Virus record (IMG/VR): IMGVR_UViG_3300036985_000932
Location: 1-34,423 of that record
Source of the DNA: a virus
Length of the DNA: 34,423 nt
Strand: one strand, 5' to 3'
Position 1 is the first letter of the stretch. Each line of letters starts with the position of its first letter. This document shows positions 8,299 through 23,014 of the stretch, piece by piece. The notes under the pieces were generated by a model, which worked only from the letters and a program-made list of their open reading frames with translations, made no database searches and had not been told where the DNA came from. The translations under genes and the position numbers were made by a program.

Positions 8299-8523
8299 AT
8301 GAGTTTAAAAATGACACCAATAGCTGTTTCTATTCATAGAGAAAAAGAACACCCTTTATATGGAGAAGGAGTTATCCATCTTAAATTAGAAGATGAGGCT
8401 GGTGGTTTCTTCTTCACAATTAGTCAGGAAGAGGGTTCCATGAGGATTGACTGCGATGAAATTAAACAATTAGTAATTGCAGCTAAGTTTCTATTAGATG
8501 GTGCAGGTGGTTTGAATGATTGA
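8299..8523 (+). CDS. Small hypothetical protein (74 aa)
   Basis: This is the first gene after a strong promoter. The product appears to be a beta sheet plus one helix: a HPLYGEGVIHLKLEDEAGGFFFTISQ strand region, then a DEIKQLVIAAKFLL helix. The C-terminus overlaps the next start (8516). I do not recognise the family. Co-transcription with gp33 and gp59 suggests, but does not show, a role in replication or transcription. Confidence 0.7.
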   Translation: MSLKMTPIAVSIHREKEHPLYGEGVIHLKLEDEAGGFFFTISQEEGSMRIDCDEIKQLVIAAKFLLDGAGGLND

Positions 8524-8779
8524 AGGATACTCAATTCTGTATGCTCTGAAAGAAAAAGAGAAACTAAAAGAAATATTCAAAAGTCTTTCTGAACAAAAGA
8601 AAGTTATTGATGATTGGTTTACTGATTTTGGTAACAAGTATAGCAATTCTGTTCTTTCTAAAGCACCATATTATAGTGATATAAGAAAACCTTACAATGA
8701 AAAATTCGACGAATATGAGGATTTAATGTTGAAATATAGATCAGTAAGTTATTACCTGGAGTTACTAAATGAGCGATGA
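8516..8779 (+). CDS. Small coiled-coil-like hypothetical protein (87 aa)
   Basis: The product is almost entirely charged helix (KEKEKLKEIFKSLSEQKKVIDDW, and a C-terminal YYLELLNER). It overlaps the gene before it by eight bases and gp33 after it by eleven, so all three are coupled. Its position just before gp33-gp59-gp32 might tempt one to call it UvsY, but I see no convincing UvsY features and leave it unassigned. Confidence 0.65.
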   Translation: MIEGYSILYALKEKEKLKEIFKSLSEQKKVIDDWFTDFGNKYSNSVLSKAPYYSDIRKPYNEKFDEYEDLMLKYRSVSYYLELLNER

Positions 8780-8984
8780 AATAGACTTCTCTTTGTTTAT
8801 CGAAAACCTTGCAAATGATAAAAGGTTATCTAGAATGGATGCAATTCTTCTATACTGTTCTGAGAACTTCATAGATCCAATTGATGTTGTTCCAAATATC
8901 AGCAAATCATTAAAAGATAAGATAGAAATGGAAATGATCGAGGAAGGAAAGTTACCGAAGTTTACAACATCTGAAGTCGTATGA
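8769..8984 (+). CDS. 33: gp33-like late transcription co-activator
   Basis: The 71-residue product aligns by eye with the centre of T4 gp33. The pattern LSRMDAILLYCSENFIDPIDV...ISKSLKDKIEMEMIEEGKLP corresponds to gp33's MSYLEATTAFLEEN...IPSGIIEKIQSEAIDENLL. gp33 binds the RNA polymerase beta flap and links gp55-bound polymerase to the sliding clamp, which turns on late promoters. Gene order 33-59-32 is the same as in T4. The protein is shorter than T4 gp33 (112 residues), as in marine relatives, lacking the N-terminal extension. Presence of gp33 supports reading the NATAAATA motifs as late promoters. Confidence 0.8.
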   Translation: MSDEIDFSLFIENLANDKRLSRMDAILLYCSENFIDPIDVVPNISKSLKDKIEMEMIEEGKLPKFTTSEVV

Positions 8985-9592
8985 TTACAGGATTTACTCT
9001 ATTCAAATATGATAAAGCAGTTAAATTACATTTCACTAACAAGAAATACAATCTGTTCGATTACAAAGGTAAAACGAATGGTGTGTCTTTCGAGAACTTC
9101 CTAGCAAGAAGAGATTACAATATCTATAATGCCATCGCTAGGAAATTTGAAACTGATACACAATCTATACAATTTTTGGTAGCAAACTACGCTTACAAAA
9201 ATGATCCTATCTATAACATTGCTTCAAGTGATAATAACTTCATTACTTGGACTAAACGTAAGCAAAGTATTACCAATACCTTTAAGAATGATATTGATAA
9301 TGTAATCCTTGTTATGGAAAAGAAGTCAATGTCTTGTATGGATATGATAGATAATAGAAAAGATATACCAGAGTTGTTTAAAATGTATCTGCAAAACAAT
9401 ATTACCGTAGAATCTCTGTTTATCCTTAACAAGTTTTTGCCGTTCATTGATAACTGGGAATCTACATTAGAAACTGTATGGGGTACTGACTTATTGATAA
9501 TCAAGAAGTTGGAACGATTTGTTAAATATAATGAGGATACAATCAAAGAAATATTAAATAATACTTTACTTTTAGATGAAATTGTAGTATAA
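8981..9592 (+). CDS. 59: gp59-like replicative helicase loader
   Basis: At 203 residues it is close to T4 gp59 (217). It begins FTLFKYDKAVKLHFTNKKYNL, continues with a basic segment (ARRDYNIYNAIARKF) and has a C-terminal helical part with FILNKFLPFIDNWE, corresponding to gp59's FILLDSFLNIIDK. gp59 binds forked DNA and gp32 and loads the gp41 helicase. Its start overlaps the gp33 stop (ATGA), and gene 32 follows after a promoter located inside its own 3' end. Name based on motif similarity and T4 gene order. Confidence 0.85.
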   Translation: MITGFTLFKYDKAVKLHFTNKKYNLFDYKGKTNGVSFENFLARRDYNIYNAIARKFETDTQSIQFLVANYAYKNDPIYNIASSDNNFITWTKRKQSITNTFKNDIDNVILVMEKKSMSCMDMIDNRKDIPELFKMYLQNNITVESLFILNKFLPFIDNWESTLETVWGTDLLIIKKLERFVKYNEDTIKEILNNTLLLDEIVV

Positions 9593-10630: not shown

Positions 10631-10654
10631 AAGGAGTCTTCGGACTCCTTTTTT
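10631..10654 (+). terminator. Strong UUCG rho-independent terminator after gene 32
   Basis: AAGGAGTC (10631-10638), a TTCG tetraloop and GACTCCTT (10643-10650) form an eight-pair stem followed by a T run. It also lies at the end of the convergent tape-measure gene, whose stop begins at 10655. On that strand only three Ts follow the stem, so it would be a weaker terminator there. Confidence 0.93.
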
Positions 10655-13265
10655 ATGAGAACCTTTGTCTACTTGCGAACATATTATTAACAGATGATTC
10701 AGGATTCTTTACATCTATTTTCATAGGTGATTTACTTGAACTATTGTTAACAGTATTATTAGGTGCTGATATATTATTAATAACAGGAGCTGCAGCAGGA
10801 GTTGAAGAAGATGTAGTTTCTGCTGATTGATTATAGATTGAATCTGCTGTTCTAGGCACAACTGTTAAAGGATTTGCTTTAGTAGGTTGTTCAGGAGTAA
10901 CTTGTTGTGCATCTAGATTGTTTAATTGTTGTTCAATTGATGGTCTAGGTGTATATTCTTGGTATCCTTGAGATTCTGGTGTTACTTGTTCAGGTTTAGT
11001 TCCTTCTGGTGTTGCAGGTTTAGCAGTTCCTTCTGGTGTTGCAGGTTTAGCAGTTCCTTCTGGTGTTGCAGGTTTAGCAGTTCCTTCTGGTGTTGCAGGT
11101 TTAGCAGTTCCTTCTGGTGTTGCAGGTTTAGCAGTTCCAGCATCTTTTCCACCAGTAATTACACTTTGTTCATAAATCTTCTTTATTTTATCAGTATCTT
11201 CTGGACTAAATTCTACACCAGAATCTAATAACTTCTTGATATCTTCAGGTGGAACTTTTTGTAATTTTTCCCAATCCAATACCTCAGATGGATTGAACCC
11301 TGCTATTGTAGCATTGTAATCTATTATCTTTTCATCGTGTAATTTCTTAACAACATCAAATCCACCTTCACCGAAAGAATCTGAATATACCTCAGCACCA
11401 GCTCGAGCAATACCAGCACCGATAACACCAACTGCTAATGGAGCAGCAAGAACACCTAATGCTCTCGAAGCAATACCACCTGCTTTCTTTAGGAATCCAC
11501 CTGCCTTCTTTAATACACCACCTGTTTCTGGTAATCCAATTCCAGACCCACCAGAAACAGGAGCAACGCCAGTTCCAGATTCTTTGAGTATGTCTAATAT
11601 TTCTTTTTGGGTATCTAGTTGTTCTGTTAAGGTTTCGTTTTGTAATTTACTATGATCTAATTGAGTATCCTGATATAACTTAGTTGAACGATTTGCTTCT
11701 ATCTCATCTTCATTAGAAGAACTTCCTTTTGATATCTCATCTTCATTAGAAGAACTTCCTTTTGATATCTCAGAAGAATTAATTGATACAGGTATAGTTT
11801 TACCATCGGGTAATGGGACAAAAGCCTCATTTCCACTCGACTCTCCAAAAATAGCAATTTGAGGAGAACTAGCAATACCACCAGTAGCATATTTCGTAGT
11901 AGGGAGTTTGGCACCTATATCTTCAACTGCAGTTAATATTTTTTTGTTTGATTCTATTAAAACAGGTATAGAATCAGATAAAGTTTTCAATACCTCAGTG
12001 AGATTTGTTAATGTCGAACCTAAACCTGCAGTATCCTCCTTATCTTTAGGTTTATCCTCCTTATCTTTAGGTTTATCCTCCTTATCTTTAGGTTTATCCT
12101 CCTTATCTTTAGGTTTATCCTCCTTATCTTTAGGTTTATCTTCTTTATCTTTAGGTTTATCTTCCTTATCAGATCTATCACCTAATGTATATCTAGAATC
12201 AACTTTTTCTAATCCTTTACCTATATTAGTTTTTTCCTCAAGATATTTTTTAGAACCTTTACTTTTTCCTGCTAAATATTCTTCTTCTGTTAATGAACCT
12301 CTTTCTTTTTCTAAGAATTTTTGATTTTCTTCATTTCTGTTTGTTAATTCAGTTCGTTTTAGAAAATCAGATTCTAAAGTTTTATCTTTTTTTCTATTAC
12401 CTAAATTTCGTTCATTCTTTTTATAATCGTCTAGCTCATTAACTGTAGTTTTTTCATCATCTGTTTGAAATCTAGAGTCAACTTCTTTAAGACTTTTACC
12501 TATGTCTATTTTAGTTTGAGTATATTCCTGTGCTGATTTACTATTCTTTTTTAAGAAATCAGATTCAGATTGACCACCTCTAAGTTTTTTTAATCTTCCT
12601 TCATTTTTCTCATTAGATAATAGAAGTTTTCTTCTTTTTTCAAAATCACCTTTTAAATCAGTATCAGATTTTTCATTTCCTCTATTTTTCTCCTCTCTTA
12701 TATAATCATATTCATCTCTGGCTCTTTCTTTGAATGGATTTAGATCCAACAATCCTCTCTTTACCCCAGACATAAAACTTTTTCCTGTTACTTTATCAGG
12801 ACCAGTTCCGGCTTCGCCATAGGTACTCATGAAATTAGATTTGATATCACCTAAAGATTCTTTAAAAGTTTTAGTTACCTTAGTTCCTTTTACGTTATCA
12901 GAAATACCTTTATATTCTTCATTTTTATCTAATTTAGAAGACATCACATCTTGTAGTTTTTTTAGTGATTCTAAATGAGCCTTATCAGCAGTATTTCTAT
13001 ATCGATTACCTTTTTCAATACTATTCTTAATATCTCTTAATTCATCAAGATGTTTATCTTCACGTTCAGTATCATATTCTTCTTTAATATCTATTTCTTT
13101 CTTATGTTCTTTCTTATTTTCTTTTTCTTGTTCAATAATAATTTTTACATATTTAGAGATTTCATCCAATGTTTTAGATGAATCATACTGCATCAATCTA
13201 TCGGTCTTCATTAGATTAACGATAGAAAGCAAATGTTCGTTTTGTTTGGCGAGTAAATCTATCAT
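10653..13265 (-). CDS. Tail tape measure protein (870 aa)
   Basis: Position directly after gp26 and the frameshift ORF, large size and composition all point to the tape measure (T4 gp29 role). Residues 1-365 are charged and helical and contain two ungapped 80-residue repeats (187-266, 280-359). A six-fold heptad KDKEDKP follows. At about 455-485 is the typical tape-measure box with GGIASSPQIAIFGE and EAFVPLPDG. A glycine/alanine hydrophobic stretch follows (ALGVLAAPLAVGVIGAGIARAG), then five copies of GTAKPATPE. The end (NNISAPNNTVNNSSSKSP... SSVNNMFASRQRF) is like other tape-measure C-termini. The ribosome-binding site lies in the end of the frameshift ORF. Confidence 0.75.
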   Translation of the reverse strand: MIDLLAKQNEHLLSIVNLMKTDRLMQYDSSKTLDEISKYVKIIIEQEKENKKEHKKEIDIKEEYDTEREDKHLDELRDIKNSIEKGNRYRNTADKAHLESLKKLQDVMSSKLDKNEEYKGISDNVKGTKVTKTFKESLGDIKSNFMSTYGEAGTGPDKVTGKSFMSGVKRGLLDLNPFKERARDEYDYIREEKNRGNEKSDTDLKGDFEKRRKLLLSNEKNEGRLKKLRGGQSESDFLKKNSKSAQEYTQTKIDIGKSLKEVDSRFQTDDEKTTVNELDDYKKNERNLGNRKKDKTLESDFLKRTELTNRNEENQKFLEKERGSLTEEEYLAGKSKGSKKYLEEKTNIGKGLEKVDSRYTLGDRSDKEDKPKDKEDKPKDKEDKPKDKEDKPKDKEDKPKDKEDKPKDKEDTAGLGSTLTNLTEVLKTLSDSIPVLIESNKKILTAVEDIGAKLPTTKYATGGIASSPQIAIFGESSGNEAFVPLPDGKTIPVSINSSEISKGSSSNEDEISKGSSSNEDEIEANRSTKLYQDTQLDHSKLQNETLTEQLDTQKEILDILKESGTGVAPVSGGSGIGLPETGGVLKKAGGFLKKAGGIASRALGVLAAPLAVGVIGAGIARAGAEVYSDSFGEGGFDVVKKLHDEKIIDYNATIAGFNPSEVLDWEKLQKVPPEDIKKLLDSGVEFSPEDTDKIKKIYEQSVITGGKDAGTAKPATPEGTAKPATPEGTAKPATPEGTAKPATPEGTAKPATPEGTKPEQVTPESQGYQEYTPRPSIEQQLNNLDAQQVTPEQPTKANPLTVVPRTADSIYNQSAETTSSSTPAAAPVINNISAPNNTVNNSSSKSPMKIDVKNPESSVNNMFASRQRFS
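11004..11138 (-). repeat. Five perfect 27-bp tandem repeats in tape measure gene
   Basis: Five contiguous, identical 27-base units encode GTAKPATPE repeated five times. Perfect identity at all codon positions indicates recent expansion by slippage or recombination. Confidence 0.97.
11701..11766 (-). repeat. Two perfect 33-bp tandem repeats in tape measure gene
   Basis: Two identical 33-base units encode two copies of an 11-residue stretch (EISKGSSSNED), just upstream in the protein from the hydrophobic part. Confidence 0.95.
12034..12159 (-). repeat. Six 21-bp tandem repeats (KDKEDKP heptads)
   Basis: Six 21-base units, five identical and the last with two changes, are followed by a partial seventh. 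They encode a highly charged heptad linker between the duplicated N-terminal domain and the rest of the tape measure. Confidence 0.95.
12189..12707 (-). repeat. Ancient 80-residue domain duplication in tape measure
   Basis: Residues 187-266 (12468-12707) and 280-359 (12189-12428) align without gaps. Shared landmarks in both copies include DY, N.GN, L..DF.KR, NE.N, IGK.L..VDSR and a final aromatic. The DNA has diverged, unlike the small tandem repeats. Confidence 0.8.
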
Positions 13266-13271
13266 CTTATC

Positions 13272-13451
13272 TTACCTTTGGGTTTGTCGTTCTTTCTCTT
13301 CTTGTAAAAAATTAGTAAGCATTGAAATATAGATCTCACGTTCAAAAGGAATCATTTGCTCTATGTCGGATAATGAATATTTATGATATTGCAATAATGC
13401 AAAGTTCATTTTGTAATAATTCGCCAAACTATCGTGACATAGAGCTACTAA
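13272..13451 (-). CDS. Frameshift-expressed C-terminal part of gp26 chaperone (gp26-T-like)
   Basis: In the -1 frame relative to gp26 an open frame runs from the T run at 13450-13457 to TAA at 13272-13274. A -1 slip at the gp26 stop would add 59 residues (LVALCHDSLANYYK, then MNFALLQYHKYSLSDIEQMI... ending EEKERQTQR), giving a fusion of about 296 residues. The only ATG (13409) has no ribosome-binding site, which favours frameshifting. The segment FALLQYHKYSLSDIEQM..FEREIY recurs in T4-like phages as I recall it. The tape measure gene starts six bases after the stop, as in the lambda G/GT arrangement. Probably a tail-assembly chaperone part. Confidence 0.65.
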   Translation of the reverse strand, partial: LVALCHDSLANYYKMNFALLQYHKYSLSDIEQMIPFEREIYISMLTNFLQEEKERQTQR

Positions 13452-14161
13452 AAAAAAGATTCAATACCTTCGATGTATTTGTTATGAACTTTAGCACAAA
13501 TAGGACAAGTGTATTTGACATCCTGTCTTAGTTTAGGCATAGTCTCAAAAAAGTTTTCAATTAACTTAAATTGTTGCTGTGTCAAGTTATTAATAAATTC
13601 CTCGACTTCAGACTTCGGTTGTTCCTTGGTATGATAAATCTCATTACCATCATAAATGTATTCAATAGAATTAATAATCAAATCGAATACAGAATCAATA
13701 CTATCCAAATCAATAGATGTAAAAGAATTAATCTCATCTATGTTAGGGTATTGCATAACAATCCCAACATTATCGAACAAGTTTATCTTCTTCGTATGAT
13801 TAGGATCTTTAACTACTTTGATTTGAGTTAGATCAAATGCAATTTTAACCTTGGCTTTGGGATCTTCGCATACATCACAAGAGAAAATTAACTCGGCAAT
13901 TTCACCAATAGATTTTGCTCTAATTTGTAATAACAAATATTCAAGGTCGAACATTGCTAAGGAATCAATGTCAATCTTATCCACAACACAATCTTTGATA
14001 ATTGCTTTAAGAGTGTCAACCATTACATTTTTGTCTTCACTTTGTTGAGCAATCAATAATGCCTTTTCTTCTTTAACAAGGAAAGGACGGAACTTTACTT
14101 TTTGTTCAGTAGATGGTAAAGTTGTTGTATAGATTGCTGTGCTTTGTTTTGGTAATGCCAT
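13448..14161 (-). CDS. 26: gp26-like baseplate hub / tail assembly chaperone
   Basis: The 237-residue protein begins MALPKQSTAIYTTTLPSTEQKVKFRPFLVKEEKALLIA, a pattern typical of T4-like gp26, followed by DSLAMFDLEYLLLQIRAKSIGE. It contains two CxxC pairs (CDVC in mid-protein, CPIC near the end) that could bind zinc. T4 gp26 (208 residues) is required for baseplate hub assembly. A clean AAGGTG site precedes the ATG. The last codons form a slippery T run, so part of the product is probably extended into the -1 frame, which would fit a chaperone for the adjacent tape measure. Confidence 0.85.
   Translation of the reverse strand: MALPKQSTAIYTTTLPSTEQKVKFRPFLVKEEKALLIAQQSEDKNVMVDTLKAIIKDCVVDKIDIDSLAMFDLEYLLLQIRAKSIGEIAELIFSCDVCEDPKAKVKIAFDLTQIKVVKDPNHTKKINLFDNVGIVMQYPNIDEINSFTSIDLDSIDSVFDLIINSIEYIYDGNEIYHTKEQPKSEVEEFINNLTQQQFKLIENFFETMPKLRQDVKYTCPICAKVHNKYIEGIESFF
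13451..13471 (-). promoter_or_regulatory. Predicted -1 frameshift signal: SD-like GAAGG and slippery T run
   Basis: On the minus strand gp26 ends GAA TCT TTT TTT TAG. The heptamer T TTT TTT (13457-13451) is a permitted X XXY YYZ slip site directly before the stop. GAAGG (13471-13467) lies nine bases upstream of the heptamer, close to the spacing of the stimulatory Shine-Dalgarno in E. coli dnaX. Downstream only a weak CTAT/ATAG hairpin is visible. Confidence 0.6.
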
Positions 14162-14579: not shown

Positions 14580-15305
14580 TTATTTTTTGTAAGGAATGAC
14601 TGTGTAATTGGCAGTTACTGGAGGTGTAGGATCTGGTGAAACATTATTTACACCTGTGAATTTTGCAACTTTAATAGAAGAACCAACATCTGAATTCACA
14701 CTATTATTGATAATGGCTTGGAGTTTTTCTTGTTCAACAACATTACCTTCGATAGTATAATACTTATACATCATAGAAACTCTTAACTTCATAGGTGCAA
14801 CATCACCATAATCCAAAGGAATATCTTGAATAGATTTAGGATAACATTCAAATAAATTAACTTTGTATCTAATATTAAGATTCTTATCGTGAACGATAAC
14901 TTCCATTCTAGTGACATAATCATCATAATATCTACAAGTTCTAGTATTAGGATTTATAATAAAGTCCATCCAAGAATCGAAGAATTTCTTAACATTAAGA
15001 TCTATATCTGCATAGAATGATAACGACAACTCAGAAAACAATCTTTGAGTTGGCATTTGTCTTGCTTCACCATATACAGCAACATCATTTGTTATCAAAC
15101 TTAGACCAGGAATAACTGCACTATCGCATTGTAATGAGAAATTAGGTTGTGATATAGGCAAAGTAAAATTTGATGACGACATTGCCCGTGGAAATGTTAT
15201 AATTGCACTAAAGTAATTAGATTTAGATATTCCTTTCTTTGTTACATTAGAAATAAAACTATTTAATCCTAAACTTCCATAACTCGGATCTTTAATAATA
15301 GCCAT
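14580..15305 (-). CDS. 54: Tail-tube-fold protein (gp54/gp19-like, probable tube initiator)
   Basis: I start at ATG 15305 (MAIIKDPSYG) rather than the upstream ATG at 15341. AGGAG lies seven bases before it, and it overlaps the preceding stop as TAATG. The 241-residue product has tube-protein features: LGLNSFISNVTKKGISKSNYF, a LQCDSAVIPGLSL strand, an RLFSELSLSFYAD strand, a KKFFDSWMDFIINP helix and a final MYKYYTIEGN. The T4 gp19/gp54 family forms the tail tube and its first ring. Nearness to gp48-type genes favours gp54, but a major tube protein cannot be excluded. The last 26 residues match the gp48 N-terminus on the opposite strand. Confidence 0.7.
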   Translation of the reverse strand: MAIIKDPSYGSLGLNSFISNVTKKGISKSNYFSAIITFPRAMSSSNFTLPISQPNFSLQCDSAVIPGLSLITNDVAVYGEARQMPTQRLFSELSLSFYADIDLNVKKFFDSWMDFIINPNTRTCRYYDDYVTRMEVIVHDKNLNIRYKVNLFECYPKSIQDIPLDYGDVAPMKLRVSMMYKYYTIEGNVVEQEKLQAIINNSVNSDVGSSIKVAKFTGVNNVSPDPTPPVTANYTVIPYKK

Positions 15306-19349: not shown

Positions 19350-20036
19350 ATGAATCAGGTGTTTTATACTGGGGTAGTTGAGAATAGATTAGATCCACTT
19401 AAACTTGGTAGATGTCAAGTTAGAGTTGTTGGGTTACATACAGAAAATAAAATAGAATTACCCACATTTGATTTACCTTGGGCACATCCAATGATGCCGA
19501 TTAATTCAGCATCTATGAATGGTTTAGGTTGGAGTCCAACTGGAGTAGTTCAAGGGAGTTGGGTTATTGTAGTTTTTATGGATGAGTTTCAACAACAACC
19601 AGTTATGCTTGGAACTATTGGTGGTATACCTCAAACAAGATCTGCTGCATATGTTTCAGAAGTTACTAATGGAGTTGTATCTACTAGTGATGATGGAGAA
19701 TTAGTAAGTTCAACTGGTGATGATGTGACTGATTTAATTGATTCACTTGCTGAAGATGCACCTGAAGGTGTTACTCAAGAAACTGCCAAGAAATATCATA
19801 TTAATGCTATAACTGTTCAATTGACAGATGGAACATATATTACTTATGATGTTAAGTCTAATGATGAAGATACAACAATAGCAACTGTTGCTTATGACGA
19901 AACTACTAAGAAATATAATGCAACATTATCAAAACCTGAACAATGGGAAGATTTCCAATATCTACCATTTAAGGGAACCAGTATGCCGTTTGATACAAAA
20001 GAACAAGTATTAAACTATTTCGAAACTAATTTTTAA
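19350..20036 (+). CDS. 5: gp5 OB-fold domain protein (spike base, separate gene)
   Basis: The N-terminus FYTGVVENRLDPLKLGRCQVRVVGLH is the signature of the gp5 OB-fold, followed by PWAHPMMPINSASMNGLG, PTGVVQGSWVIVVFMD and QPVMLGTIGG. In T4 this domain is fused to lysozyme and the beta-helix; here the gene ends after 228 residues with an acidic beta-rich extension. It probably forms the trimer ring between gp27 and the spike in the next gene. AGGAAA precedes the ATG and the spacing to the spike gene is eight bases, which suggests 1:1 production. Confidence 0.85.
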   Translation: MNQVFYTGVVENRLDPLKLGRCQVRVVGLHTENKIELPTFDLPWAHPMMPINSASMNGLGWSPTGVVQGSWVIVVFMDEFQQQPVMLGTIGGIPQTRSAAYVSEVTNGVVSTSDDGELVSSTGDDVTDLIDSLAEDAPEGVTQETAKKYHINAITVQLTDGTYITYDVKSNDEDTTIATVAYDETTKKYNATLSKPEQWEDFQYLPFKGTSMPFDTKEQVLNYFETNF

Positions 20037-20044
20037 GGTATATT

Positions 20045-23014
20045 ATGGCTGACACATTAGAGAAAGGACCAATTCCAGATACTCCACCTGCTGAATCTGG
20101 AGCAACACAAGGTGCTATTGCAGGTATTGCTGCAATAAAAAAAGCGTGTGCATCAGAAGGAATTGATTCTAATTATGCCATTTGTGCATTGTTAGGTATA
20201 GCTGGGGTAGAGAGTAAGTGGTTATATACTGCCGAAGAAATATATGGGTATTCTAAAAAAGGATTAATGAATGGTCCATTCAAACCTATGCCAGAAGCAG
20301 AAGCAGAAAAATGGTGTAATCCAGTTTCAAAAGGATACACCAGAGTTCAATTTTTTGGGTGGTTATATGGAACAAGAAAACCAAACGGAACACCTGCTGA
20401 TGGTAATTATTTTGGTCGAGGATTCATACAAATAACCACTAAGGCAAATTATAAAGCAGTAGGAAAAATTCTAGGGTTAGACCTAGTAAACGAACCTGCA
20501 AAAGTTACTTCTGACATAGATACAGGTGCTAGAATAGCAGTTGCTTTCTTGAAGATGAACATCCCTAATTGGAAGCAAGATCAGTACCTCCCTTCATTCT
20601 TCGAAAAGTTAAAGAGAGTTGTTAAAGGTGATCCTGCTGGTTGGGATCTAAAGAGACAATATTATGAATATTTCTTGGGTGGGAAATCTGCGGCACCTCC
20701 AACTAATAAAGATCCAAGCACTACCACTGTTAATAAATCTCCTAAAGAAATAGAAGCAGCTCCTCCTAGCAAAAGAGAAGCATACACCGAAGATAGAACT
20801 GCTAATTTTAATACAGAGGGATTCACTGATCCAGAAGGGAAATATCCTCTTAGAGATTTTATGAACGAGCCAGATACCAATAGACTCGCTCGTGGTATTA
20901 TAGATGGAACTCATGTAAATTTTAAAGATTCTTCTAGAATGACTGGTATACCTGTTGCTAATGGTGGATCGTATGACCAACCTCAGTCTGCTTATAATAC
21001 AGTCTATCCATTTAATAAAGTATTTGAATCTGAAGCTGGTCATGTATTAGAATTTGATGATAGTCCAGATGGTGAACGTGTAAATCTATATCATAAGAAA
21101 GGAACATTTATTGAAATAGATCCTAACGGTTCTCAAATCAATTATATCGTTGGTGATGGGTTTTATCTTACAGAAAACAATGGAAACATCTTTATAAATG
21201 GGACTTGTAACATAACTTCAGCAGGACCAATGAACATCCTATGTCAAGGAGATGCAAATATCGAAGTTGATGGTCAAGTAGATGCAGTATTCCATAATAA
21301 TGTTAATATGGGAGTTGCTAATGATTTGTGCCTTGCTGTTGGTGGAGATTACAATGTTCTAGTTGAAGGAAACTACAATGTTGAGGTAGGTAAAACTTCT
21401 AACACCAGATCTATTGGATCAATGGCGATTGAATCTACTGATATCTTAAAATTGAAGACTGCTAAGACAATAAGTATGGAGGGTGGCGACACTGCTTCTA
21501 CTGCTGAAACATTAATGAAAATGTCAAGTAGTTTCAAACTAGAAACACCTGCCGATTTTCAAATTAAAGCAAATACCTTTACATTAGATATTGCAACAGA
21601 TACTAAAATAAGAACAAAGACCTTGTTAGTTGAAGTTGAAGAAACAACTAAAATTAAAACAGATAAATTCCAATTAGATACAAAAACAGATACTAAGATT
21701 AAAACAGATAAGTTTCAATTGGATGGGACAACATCTACAAATATTCTTACTGGAATGTTTAATACTACTACAACTATGGGTGTTCTTCAACTTAATTCTG
21801 TTGGAACTGCTGTTATAAATGCTGGTGGATTAATATCTAATACTGCCCCAATAATAAACCTTAACAGTGGTGCAATACCACCAGTAGTAATTCCTCCTAT
21901 AACTAAAATATCAGATAAGGTTGAACCATTAGCATTATTGGGTGCTCCAAAAGTTCCTGTTGATTTTGGTGGAGATGCTGTTAAGGATAGAAAAGAAGAA
22001 CAAGTTCTTGTTGATACTATATTAAATCCTGCTGGTGAATATAATCCTTTGACAATTTCTATGAGTGTATTACAACCTTTCTTAGGTGGTGTAGATAGTG
22101 TATTACAGAGTTTTGGTATCAATATAGGCACAGCTACTGCTACTAACATATATGAACCAAAATATTCAAATGTTCCTATCGAAACTAAAACTTCCCTGTC
22201 TGCTGCAGGTAAAGCAAGTTCTCATAGATTAGTTGTTCCTCCAGAGGATACCGCTCATAAGTATGGAAGTGAAAATTTAATTCCTCCAGAAAGACATTCT
22301 GAAGCAACATCTAAATACGAAACTGAAGAAGATTGGGCTAGTGTTGGTGGACAGAAATTAGAACATAAAATATCATCGACTAGTGACTATGAACATAATC
22401 ACGTTGAACCTACTGCCGAAGAATCATCTGCTCCTTCAGGTGGGGTTTCTGGTGGAACTGATATTTCTCAAGATAAACTTACTGATATAAATGGAAGAGA
22501 TGATTTTCCTCTAAGTTATCCTTTATCTAAACATTTCACTTTAGGTATGTTATGTAAGGATGGCAATTTACAGGAACAAACTATAGCTGGTACATTATAT
22601 ACAAAAGCCAATATAGTTGCTAATTTATCTGAATTATGTGAAAATATATTAGAAAAAATATATGATGAACTTGGTCCTTGTCAAGGGGGCGGAAGTGGTG
22701 CTACTTGGAGAATTTCTGATGGATTTAGACCTAATAATAGAGCAAATTCTAAAGGGTCTAAAACTTCACACCATCTAAAAGGCAGAGCTGCAGATATTCA
22801 ATTGGTAACACCAAATAAGATAGCTGACTTATATGATTTGTGTGTTAAATTAGAAAAGATATTACCATATCAAGAATGTTTTATGGAATATGCTAAAGGT
22901 GGAAAATCTAGATGGATACATTTGGCTTATGATAAAAACAATTCTGCTAAAGAAGTTACTACTCAGGTCGAGTGGAAAAAGAAATCTAATAAAATAGAAA
23001 AACTTTATTCATAA
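20045..23014 (+). CDS. Tail spike with GH19-like muramidase, beta-helix and M15 peptidase
   Basis: Residues about 25-215 resemble GH19 chitinase-like lysozymes: GVESKW with Glu56, EEIYGYS (Glu65) and GRGFIQITTKANY at 124-136. Residues about 290-620 form a gp5-type beta-helix with short repeating strands (GNYNVEVG, TKIKTDKFQLD twice). A linker leads to a C-terminal peptidase M15-type domain (about 800-985) with SHHLKGRAADI (His910, Asp917) and WIHLAYD (His959) as zinc ligands. The protein should pierce and digest the host envelope: one domain cuts glycan, the other peptide cross-links. At 989 residues it is far larger than the equivalent part of T4 gp5 (575 in total). Confidence 0.82.
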   Translation: MADTLEKGPIPDTPPAESGATQGAIAGIAAIKKACASEGIDSNYAICALLGIAGVESKWLYTAEEIYGYSKKGLMNGPFKPMPEAEAEKWCNPVSKGYTRVQFFGWLYGTRKPNGTPADGNYFGRGFIQITTKANYKAVGKILGLDLVNEPAKVTSDIDTGARIAVAFLKMNIPNWKQDQYLPSFFEKLKRVVKGDPAGWDLKRQYYEYFLGGKSAAPPTNKDPSTTTVNKSPKEIEAAPPSKREAYTEDRTANFNTEGFTDPEGKYPLRDFMNEPDTNRLARGIIDGTHVNFKDSSRMTGIPVANGGSYDQPQSAYNTVYPFNKVFESEAGHVLEFDDSPDGERVNLYHKKGTFIEIDPNGSQINYIVGDGFYLTENNGNIFINGTCNITSAGPMNILCQGDANIEVDGQVDAVFHNNVNMGVANDLCLAVGGDYNVLVEGNYNVEVGKTSNTRSIGSMAIESTDILKLKTAKTISMEGGDTASTAETLMKMSSSFKLETPADFQIKANTFTLDIATDTKIRTKTLLVEVEETTKIKTDKFQLDTKTDTKIKTDKFQLDGTTSTNILTGMFNTTTTMGVLQLNSVGTAVINAGGLISNTAPIINLNSGAIPPVVIPPITKISDKVEPLALLGAPKVPVDFGGDAVKDRKEEQVLVDTILNPAGEYNPLTISMSVLQPFLGGVDSVLQSFGINIGTATATNIYEPKYSNVPIETKTSLSAAGKASSHRLVVPPEDTAHKYGSENLIPPERHSEATSKYETEEDWASVGGQKLEHKISSTSDYEHNHVEPTAEESSAPSGGVSGGTDISQDKLTDINGRDDFPLSYPLSKHFTLGMLCKDGNLQEQTIAGTLYTKANIVANLSELCENILEKIYDELGPCQGGGSGATWRISDGFRPNNRANSKGSKTSHHLKGRAADIQLVTPNKIADLYDLCVKLEKILPYQECFMEYAKGGKSRWIHLAYDKNNSAKEVTTQVEWKKKSNKIEKLYS

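Follow-up and report, generated by a model that had tools for sequence, protein, structure and literature searches.

A predicted -1 ribosomal frameshift at the gp26 locus of an uncultivated T4-like marine phage would yield a tail assembly chaperone in two forms

The tail assembly chaperones (TACs) of T4-like phages reportedly depend on frameshifting that is conserved in several groups, and T4 itself is said to have separate genes, 26 and 51, for the two forms. These chaperones are the subject of a recent study (Vladimirov, Gautam and Davidson, 2022, Virology 566:9-15), and a passage in a paper citing that work describes poly-T -1 slippery sequences as known in the TAC-N genes of T4-like phages (PMC12846349). 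In lambda, a short form, gpG, and a -1 frameshifted long form, gpGT, act on the tape measure protein (PMC5009743), and the contractile-tail phage P2 makes gpE and gpE+E' by a -1 shift on TTTTTTG between its tail tube and tape measure genes (PMC3091744). An old puzzle is that, relative to T4 gp51, the cyanophage protein is missing its first ~200 residues, as noted by Sullivan et al. (2010, PMC3037559). Here we describe a locus in an uncultivated T4-like phage that, judged mainly by comparison with its relatives, very probably encodes a TAC in two forms by -1 ribosomal frameshifting on the heptamer T_TTT_TTT.

The stretch of DNA analyzed (the window) is an IMG/VR virus record of 34,423 bases, an uncultivated contig from a T4-like marine myophage. 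Its minus strand carries, in order, genes for a gp4-type head closure protein, a DNA end protector, the tail tube, the small terminase, gp26, a short ORF and the tape measure, placing the chaperone locus directly 5' of the tape measure gene, with the tail tube protein two genes upstream. The gp26 homologue (13448..14161, minus strand; 237 aa), the predicted short chaperone form or TAC-N, matches PF12322 (E 1.8e-60) and phrog_150 (E 5.7e-67). The upstream tail tube-type protein (14580..15305, minus strand) matches phrog_45, tail tube (E 2.2e-38), and the tape measure protein (TMP; 10653..13265, minus strand; 870 aa) was assigned from its position and from a match of residues 454-512 to phrog_1292, tail length tape measure (E 2.3e-17). 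Near-perfect or perfect in-frame tandem repeats are present inside the TMP gene at 10998..11138, 11700..11772 and 12032..12170, with units of 27, 33 and 21 bases that encode TAKPATPEG, a serine/glutamate-rich unit and KPKDKED, respectively. Elsewhere in the window, the gp5 hub/tail lysozyme is apparently divided between two plus-strand genes (19350..20036 and 20045..23014), corresponding to phrog_430 positions 17-186 and 315-561; the second of these contains two endolysin-type segments, and AAGG lies a few bases before its ATG.

The gp26 coding sequence ends GAA GGT ATT GAA TCT TTT TTT TAG, so that T_TTT_TTT (13451..13457, minus strand) is in phase and adjoins the 0-frame stop TAG (13448..13450, minus strand), base for base as the initial annotation had it. 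Three-frame translation reveals a TGA in the -1 frame three codons 5' of the slip site (13461..13463, minus strand), which rules out a start codon upstream in this frame of the window. Beyond the slip site the -1 frame is open for 59 codons (13272..13451 including the stop, minus strand) and closes at a TAA (13272-13274) that is separated by 6 nt from the TMP ATG at 13265, a geometry that had also been recognized at the outset. The earliest in-frame start codon of this extension is a TTG at codon 9 and the earliest ATG is at codon 15; no Shine-Dalgarno (SD) sequence was found before either one, in line with the earlier remark that the extension's own ATG lacks a ribosome-binding site. The predicted fusion has 296 aa and the junction SFFLVALCHD. 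In-frame T_TTT_TTN occurs four times among the 9,841 codons of the window's 29 ORFs, and only the gp26 copy is located at a gene end. On comparative evidence, the heptamer and its extension are not a product of chance, because both recur in essentially all relatives.

Among the matches listed from IMG/VR, T_TTT_TTC or T_TTT_TTT was found in phase beside the gp26 stop in 80 of 80 relatives as well as in the window, and the relatives whose contigs extend far enough have ~60 open -1 codons of conserved sequence. A set of 17 diverse annotated phage records, with hosts including Synechococcus, Prochlorococcus, Pelagibacter, Pseudomonas, Rhizobium, Agrobacterium, Sinorhizobium, Delftia, Vibrio and Aeromonas, gave 15 with an in-frame T_TTT_TTN at the gp26 end and the extension in the -1 frame. 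When the sequences were dereplicated at 90% identity, T_TTT_TT[C/T/G] was present at the same place in 49 of the 51 intact representatives; a 52nd (L106) was left out as its gp26 is truncated. This last, an HTVC008M-like contig, has an in-frame stop at gp26 codon 163, two thirds of the way through, and probably reflects a broken gene or a mistake in assembly. Given x-F-F at the junction, synonymous codon use predicts 18.4 heptamers in 49 sequences, compared with 49 observed and with 1 at the 46 remaining xFF sites of the same genes, these counts and their expectation being taken without regard to the relatedness of the sequences. The codon preceding FF is AGT, TCT, GAT, AAT or GCT, with T at the third position every time, and common descent alone seems an unlikely explanation of heptamer conservation, because the codon family changes while the T stays fixed. 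Relatives with a well-initiated ORF in place of a slippery run, which the initial annotation had named as evidence against its proposal, were sought and none was found, a result qualified by seven Ackermannviridae-type records (L090, L092 and L115-L119) that retain the -1-frame extension but have no T_TTT_TTN. Most of these are without a well-initiated ORF too, a TAATG overlap being present in some of the seven only; the junction is an invariant ATT TTC ATT TAA in five Ackermannviridae records and CTT TTY in two Vibrio phages.

As a coding sequence, the extension has a pN/pS of 0.22 in the -1 frame, a conservative value since pS is near saturation, the other two frames giving 1.06 and 2.13. 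It might be proposed that the ORF is a separate gene 51 which begins independently or by coupled initiation after gp26 termination, since it is annotated as a short gp51 in GenBank records (S-PM2, HTVC008M and others), and since the gp26 stop of many cyanophages lies only a few bases from an ATG, a setting that would permit coupled re-initiation. In many relatives the extension has an ATG a few codons in, and there re-initiation keeps a small probability. For S-PM2, the two alternatives predict distinguishable peptides, the junction peptide ...EGLQSFFRISMFYNNLENYYR for the fusion and MFYNNLENYYR for the Met-started product. We regard a separate gene as very unlikely. In ten lineages, codons 1-8 of the extension include no ATG, GTG or TTG and still keep the L..LsH..L..YY pattern; several lineages are startless for at least 12 codons with their upstream residues still conserved; and a first ATG preceded by an SD-like word, however weak, was seen in only 2 of 49 representatives. 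Independent initiation therefore does not explain the conservation of the extension. Furthermore, the TTG and ATG of the window are the SD-less codons noted above, the first ATG of the clade with a stem-loop is buried in its stem (see below), and a free-standing gene accounts neither for the near-universal heptamer nor for the way T4 gp51 aligns colinearly with the fusion.

That colinearity was evaluated by profile alignment. The extension matches phrog_634, 'baseplate hub assembly catalyst' (E 1.1e-25), and its sequence homology identifies it as the gp51 C-terminal domain (TAC-C). When compared using hhalign, the predicted fusion was colinear with T4 gp51 from end to end (242 columns, E 3.6e-20), gapless across the junction, confirming the kinship to T4 gp51 that had been raised at the start, and the alignment of the gp26 family with T4 gp26 extended as far as the slip site (E 1.4e-19). 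The two T4 proteins are also paralogous to each other (hhalign E 1e-14; L082 7803..8429 and 8480..9229). Genes 26 and 51 of T4 are separate and divergently transcribed, and this split layout is also present in Aeromonas 31 and Acj61, whereas the window has one putatively frameshifted locus instead. Because the fusion corresponds to T4 gp51 and the short form to T4 gp26, and these are paralogous, T4 uses two genes for what the window phage appears to make by frameshifting. The ~200 residues missing from cyanophage gp51 (Sullivan et al., 2010) would be explained in the same way, because the cyanophage 'gp51' is, on this evidence, the frameshifted tail of gp26. Together, the heptamer in 49 of 51 representatives, whose conservation across T4-like phages had been singled out for comparison, the pN/pS of 0.22 and the gp51 colinearity support the 296-residue -1 fusion predicted in the initial annotation.

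The eight consecutive Ts in the window raise the possibility of transcriptional slippage, in which RNA polymerase stutters and the fusion is translated from mRNA of altered length, and slippage in bacteria is known at runs of nine As or Ts (PMC5009743). This model was rejected, as the run is just T6, with C next, in most relatives, L002 at 92% identity among them; moreover, the conserved feature is the codon phase of the ribosomal heptamer, and the SD and stem elements of cyanophages are of the kind that accompanies ribosomal frameshifting, leaving a stuttering polymerase extremely improbable. An assembly or sequencing error, with gp26 and the extension truly in one frame or the run length wrong, might be suspected at a homopolymer junction of an uncultivated IMG/VR contig, but it is refuted almost beyond doubt by the same frame relation in independent contigs and isolate genomes of many phage groups.

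The sequences flanking the heptamer were examined for frameshift stimulators. An SD-like GAAGG (13467..13471, minus strand) stands 9 nt 5' of the heptamer in the window, where the initial annotation had placed it, but as a signal it is weak, with a duplex of -4.0 kcal/mol that is equaled or exceeded by 97% of synonymous shuffles, no better than synonymous codon choice. Relatives have a corresponding SD-like word ~9 nt 5' of the heptamer, and 27 of 38 use GAG for the Glu that precedes Gly there, where 12.1 are expected; this enrichment of GAG GGN yields GGAGG-like sequences. A strong GGAGG of this type, together with a covarying stem-loop, is present in many of the cyanophage relatives. The region downstream of the heptamer folds better than 95% of protein-preserving shuffles in 27 of 49 representatives, and one clade of ~16 representatives (L044, L009, L022, L065, L080 and relatives) has an 11-bp stem with a 9-nt loop, 5 nt after the heptamer. 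This stem is supported by protein-preserving shuffles and by covariation, one pair, at which an Ala third base varies jointly with another codon's second base, being U-A, A-U or G-C, and the annotated gp51 start codon lies buried within it. Outside the clade, the register of the 11-bp stem is not kept, and stems are differently placed or absent; in the window, no conserved 3' stem was found downstream of the heptamer (z -0.11 against shuffles). Because the SD-like element is weak and the downstream stem absent, the efficiency of frameshifting in the window may be low. We tentatively suggest, as an idea whose chances are somewhat short of even, that the marine T4-like clade carries a dnaX-like tripartite cassette, consisting of GGAGG, T_TTT_TTC and the covarying 11-bp stem that buries the gp51 start, which would drive frameshifting at high efficiency and set TAC-N:TAC-NC far from the 30:1 of lambda, with the window branch relying on its U8 run and the adjacent stop. 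A description of this cassette was not found in a literature search that misses most subscription journals, and the cassette of some cyanophages may be an undescribed detail.

Structure prediction was applied to gp26 and the extension as two separate chains. The AlphaFold model of gp26 (pLDDT 86) gave its best PDB matches with the HK97 TAC 2OB9 (Z 7.7), 3FGX (Z 7.6) and YqbN 3KLU (Z 7.3), values to be read with the tool's own note that Z < 8 may arise without kinship. The fourth match was 5IR0 (Z 5.4), followed by one of Z 2.4 and others of 2.4 or less. The matched part is the N-terminal ~85-90 residues of the model, with sequence identities of 7-14%. E-values were not significant in a Foldseek search of the gp26 model, and the gp26 profile, when compared with PDB sequences, gave weak MtrB matches only (E 0.0035 and 0.0087). 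With Z below 8, the gp26 model supports a TAC-N-like fold but is not conclusive. The extension model is all helical. Along with the comparative evidence and the position before the TMP gene, the TAC-like fold lends support to the G/GT-like chaperone layout suggested in the initial annotation.

From the signals, conservation, coding selection, homology and fold, we infer that slippage takes place in vivo, along with its efficiency and the binding roles of the products. The majority of ribosomes would terminate at the gp26 TAG and release the 237-aa TAC-N. A fraction, delayed by the adjoining stop while tRNA-Phe occupies the P and A sites over T_TTT_TTT, would slip one base back, re-pair on UUU UUU and translate 59 further codons, producing the 296-aa long form (TAC-NC), with the gp51-like helical domain at its C-terminus. 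If lambda gpG/gpGT is taken as a guide, the N domain would coat the TMP encoded just downstream, and the C domain would recruit tail-tube subunits.

These results suggest that annotating 'gp51' as a short gene of its own is an error in the genomes of cyanophages and other T4-like phages, and they point to an evolutionary switch between recoding in most of the superfamily and two paralogous genes in T4's own group. In practice, they benefit annotation and offer stimulators of differing strength that can be put to the test.

Compared with described systems, the locus shares some features with each. HK97 gp13 (2OB9), YqbN (3KLU) and 3FGX have a fold in common with the N-terminal ~85-90 residues of gp26, with a further ~150 gp26 residues unmatched in these chains. 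The TTTTTTG of P2 is also present in Rhizobium phage RL2RES of the gp26 family, although P2 gpE belongs to a different protein family and has no 3' structure, unlike the stem-loop cyanophage clade. In that clade an upstream SD-like sequence, heptamer and downstream stem are combined as in E. coli dnaX; in contrast, the window has a weak SD and no stem-loop at the dnaX distance of 5-9 nt after the heptamer (z -0.11), its slip is U-based, and the shifted product is longer rather than shorter. The likeness to lambda gpG/gpGT lies in a short form and a -1 frameshifted long form, and we claim no sequence similarity. The lambda slip site differs from the T_TTT_TTT of the window. T4 gp26 and gp51 are homologous to the window's products, gp51 joining an N domain that resembles gp26 to the extension domain, but T4, with two divergent genes, needs no frameshift. 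The initial annotation was not aware of such an arrangement for gp26 of T4-like phages; it was, however, published in 2022 (Vladimirov et al., 2022), and the same picture was reached independently here. The frameshifted TAC arrangement is therefore already known for T4-like phages, and the window is a further member rather than the first case, its lineage (the window and L002-L004) being an uncultivated branch.
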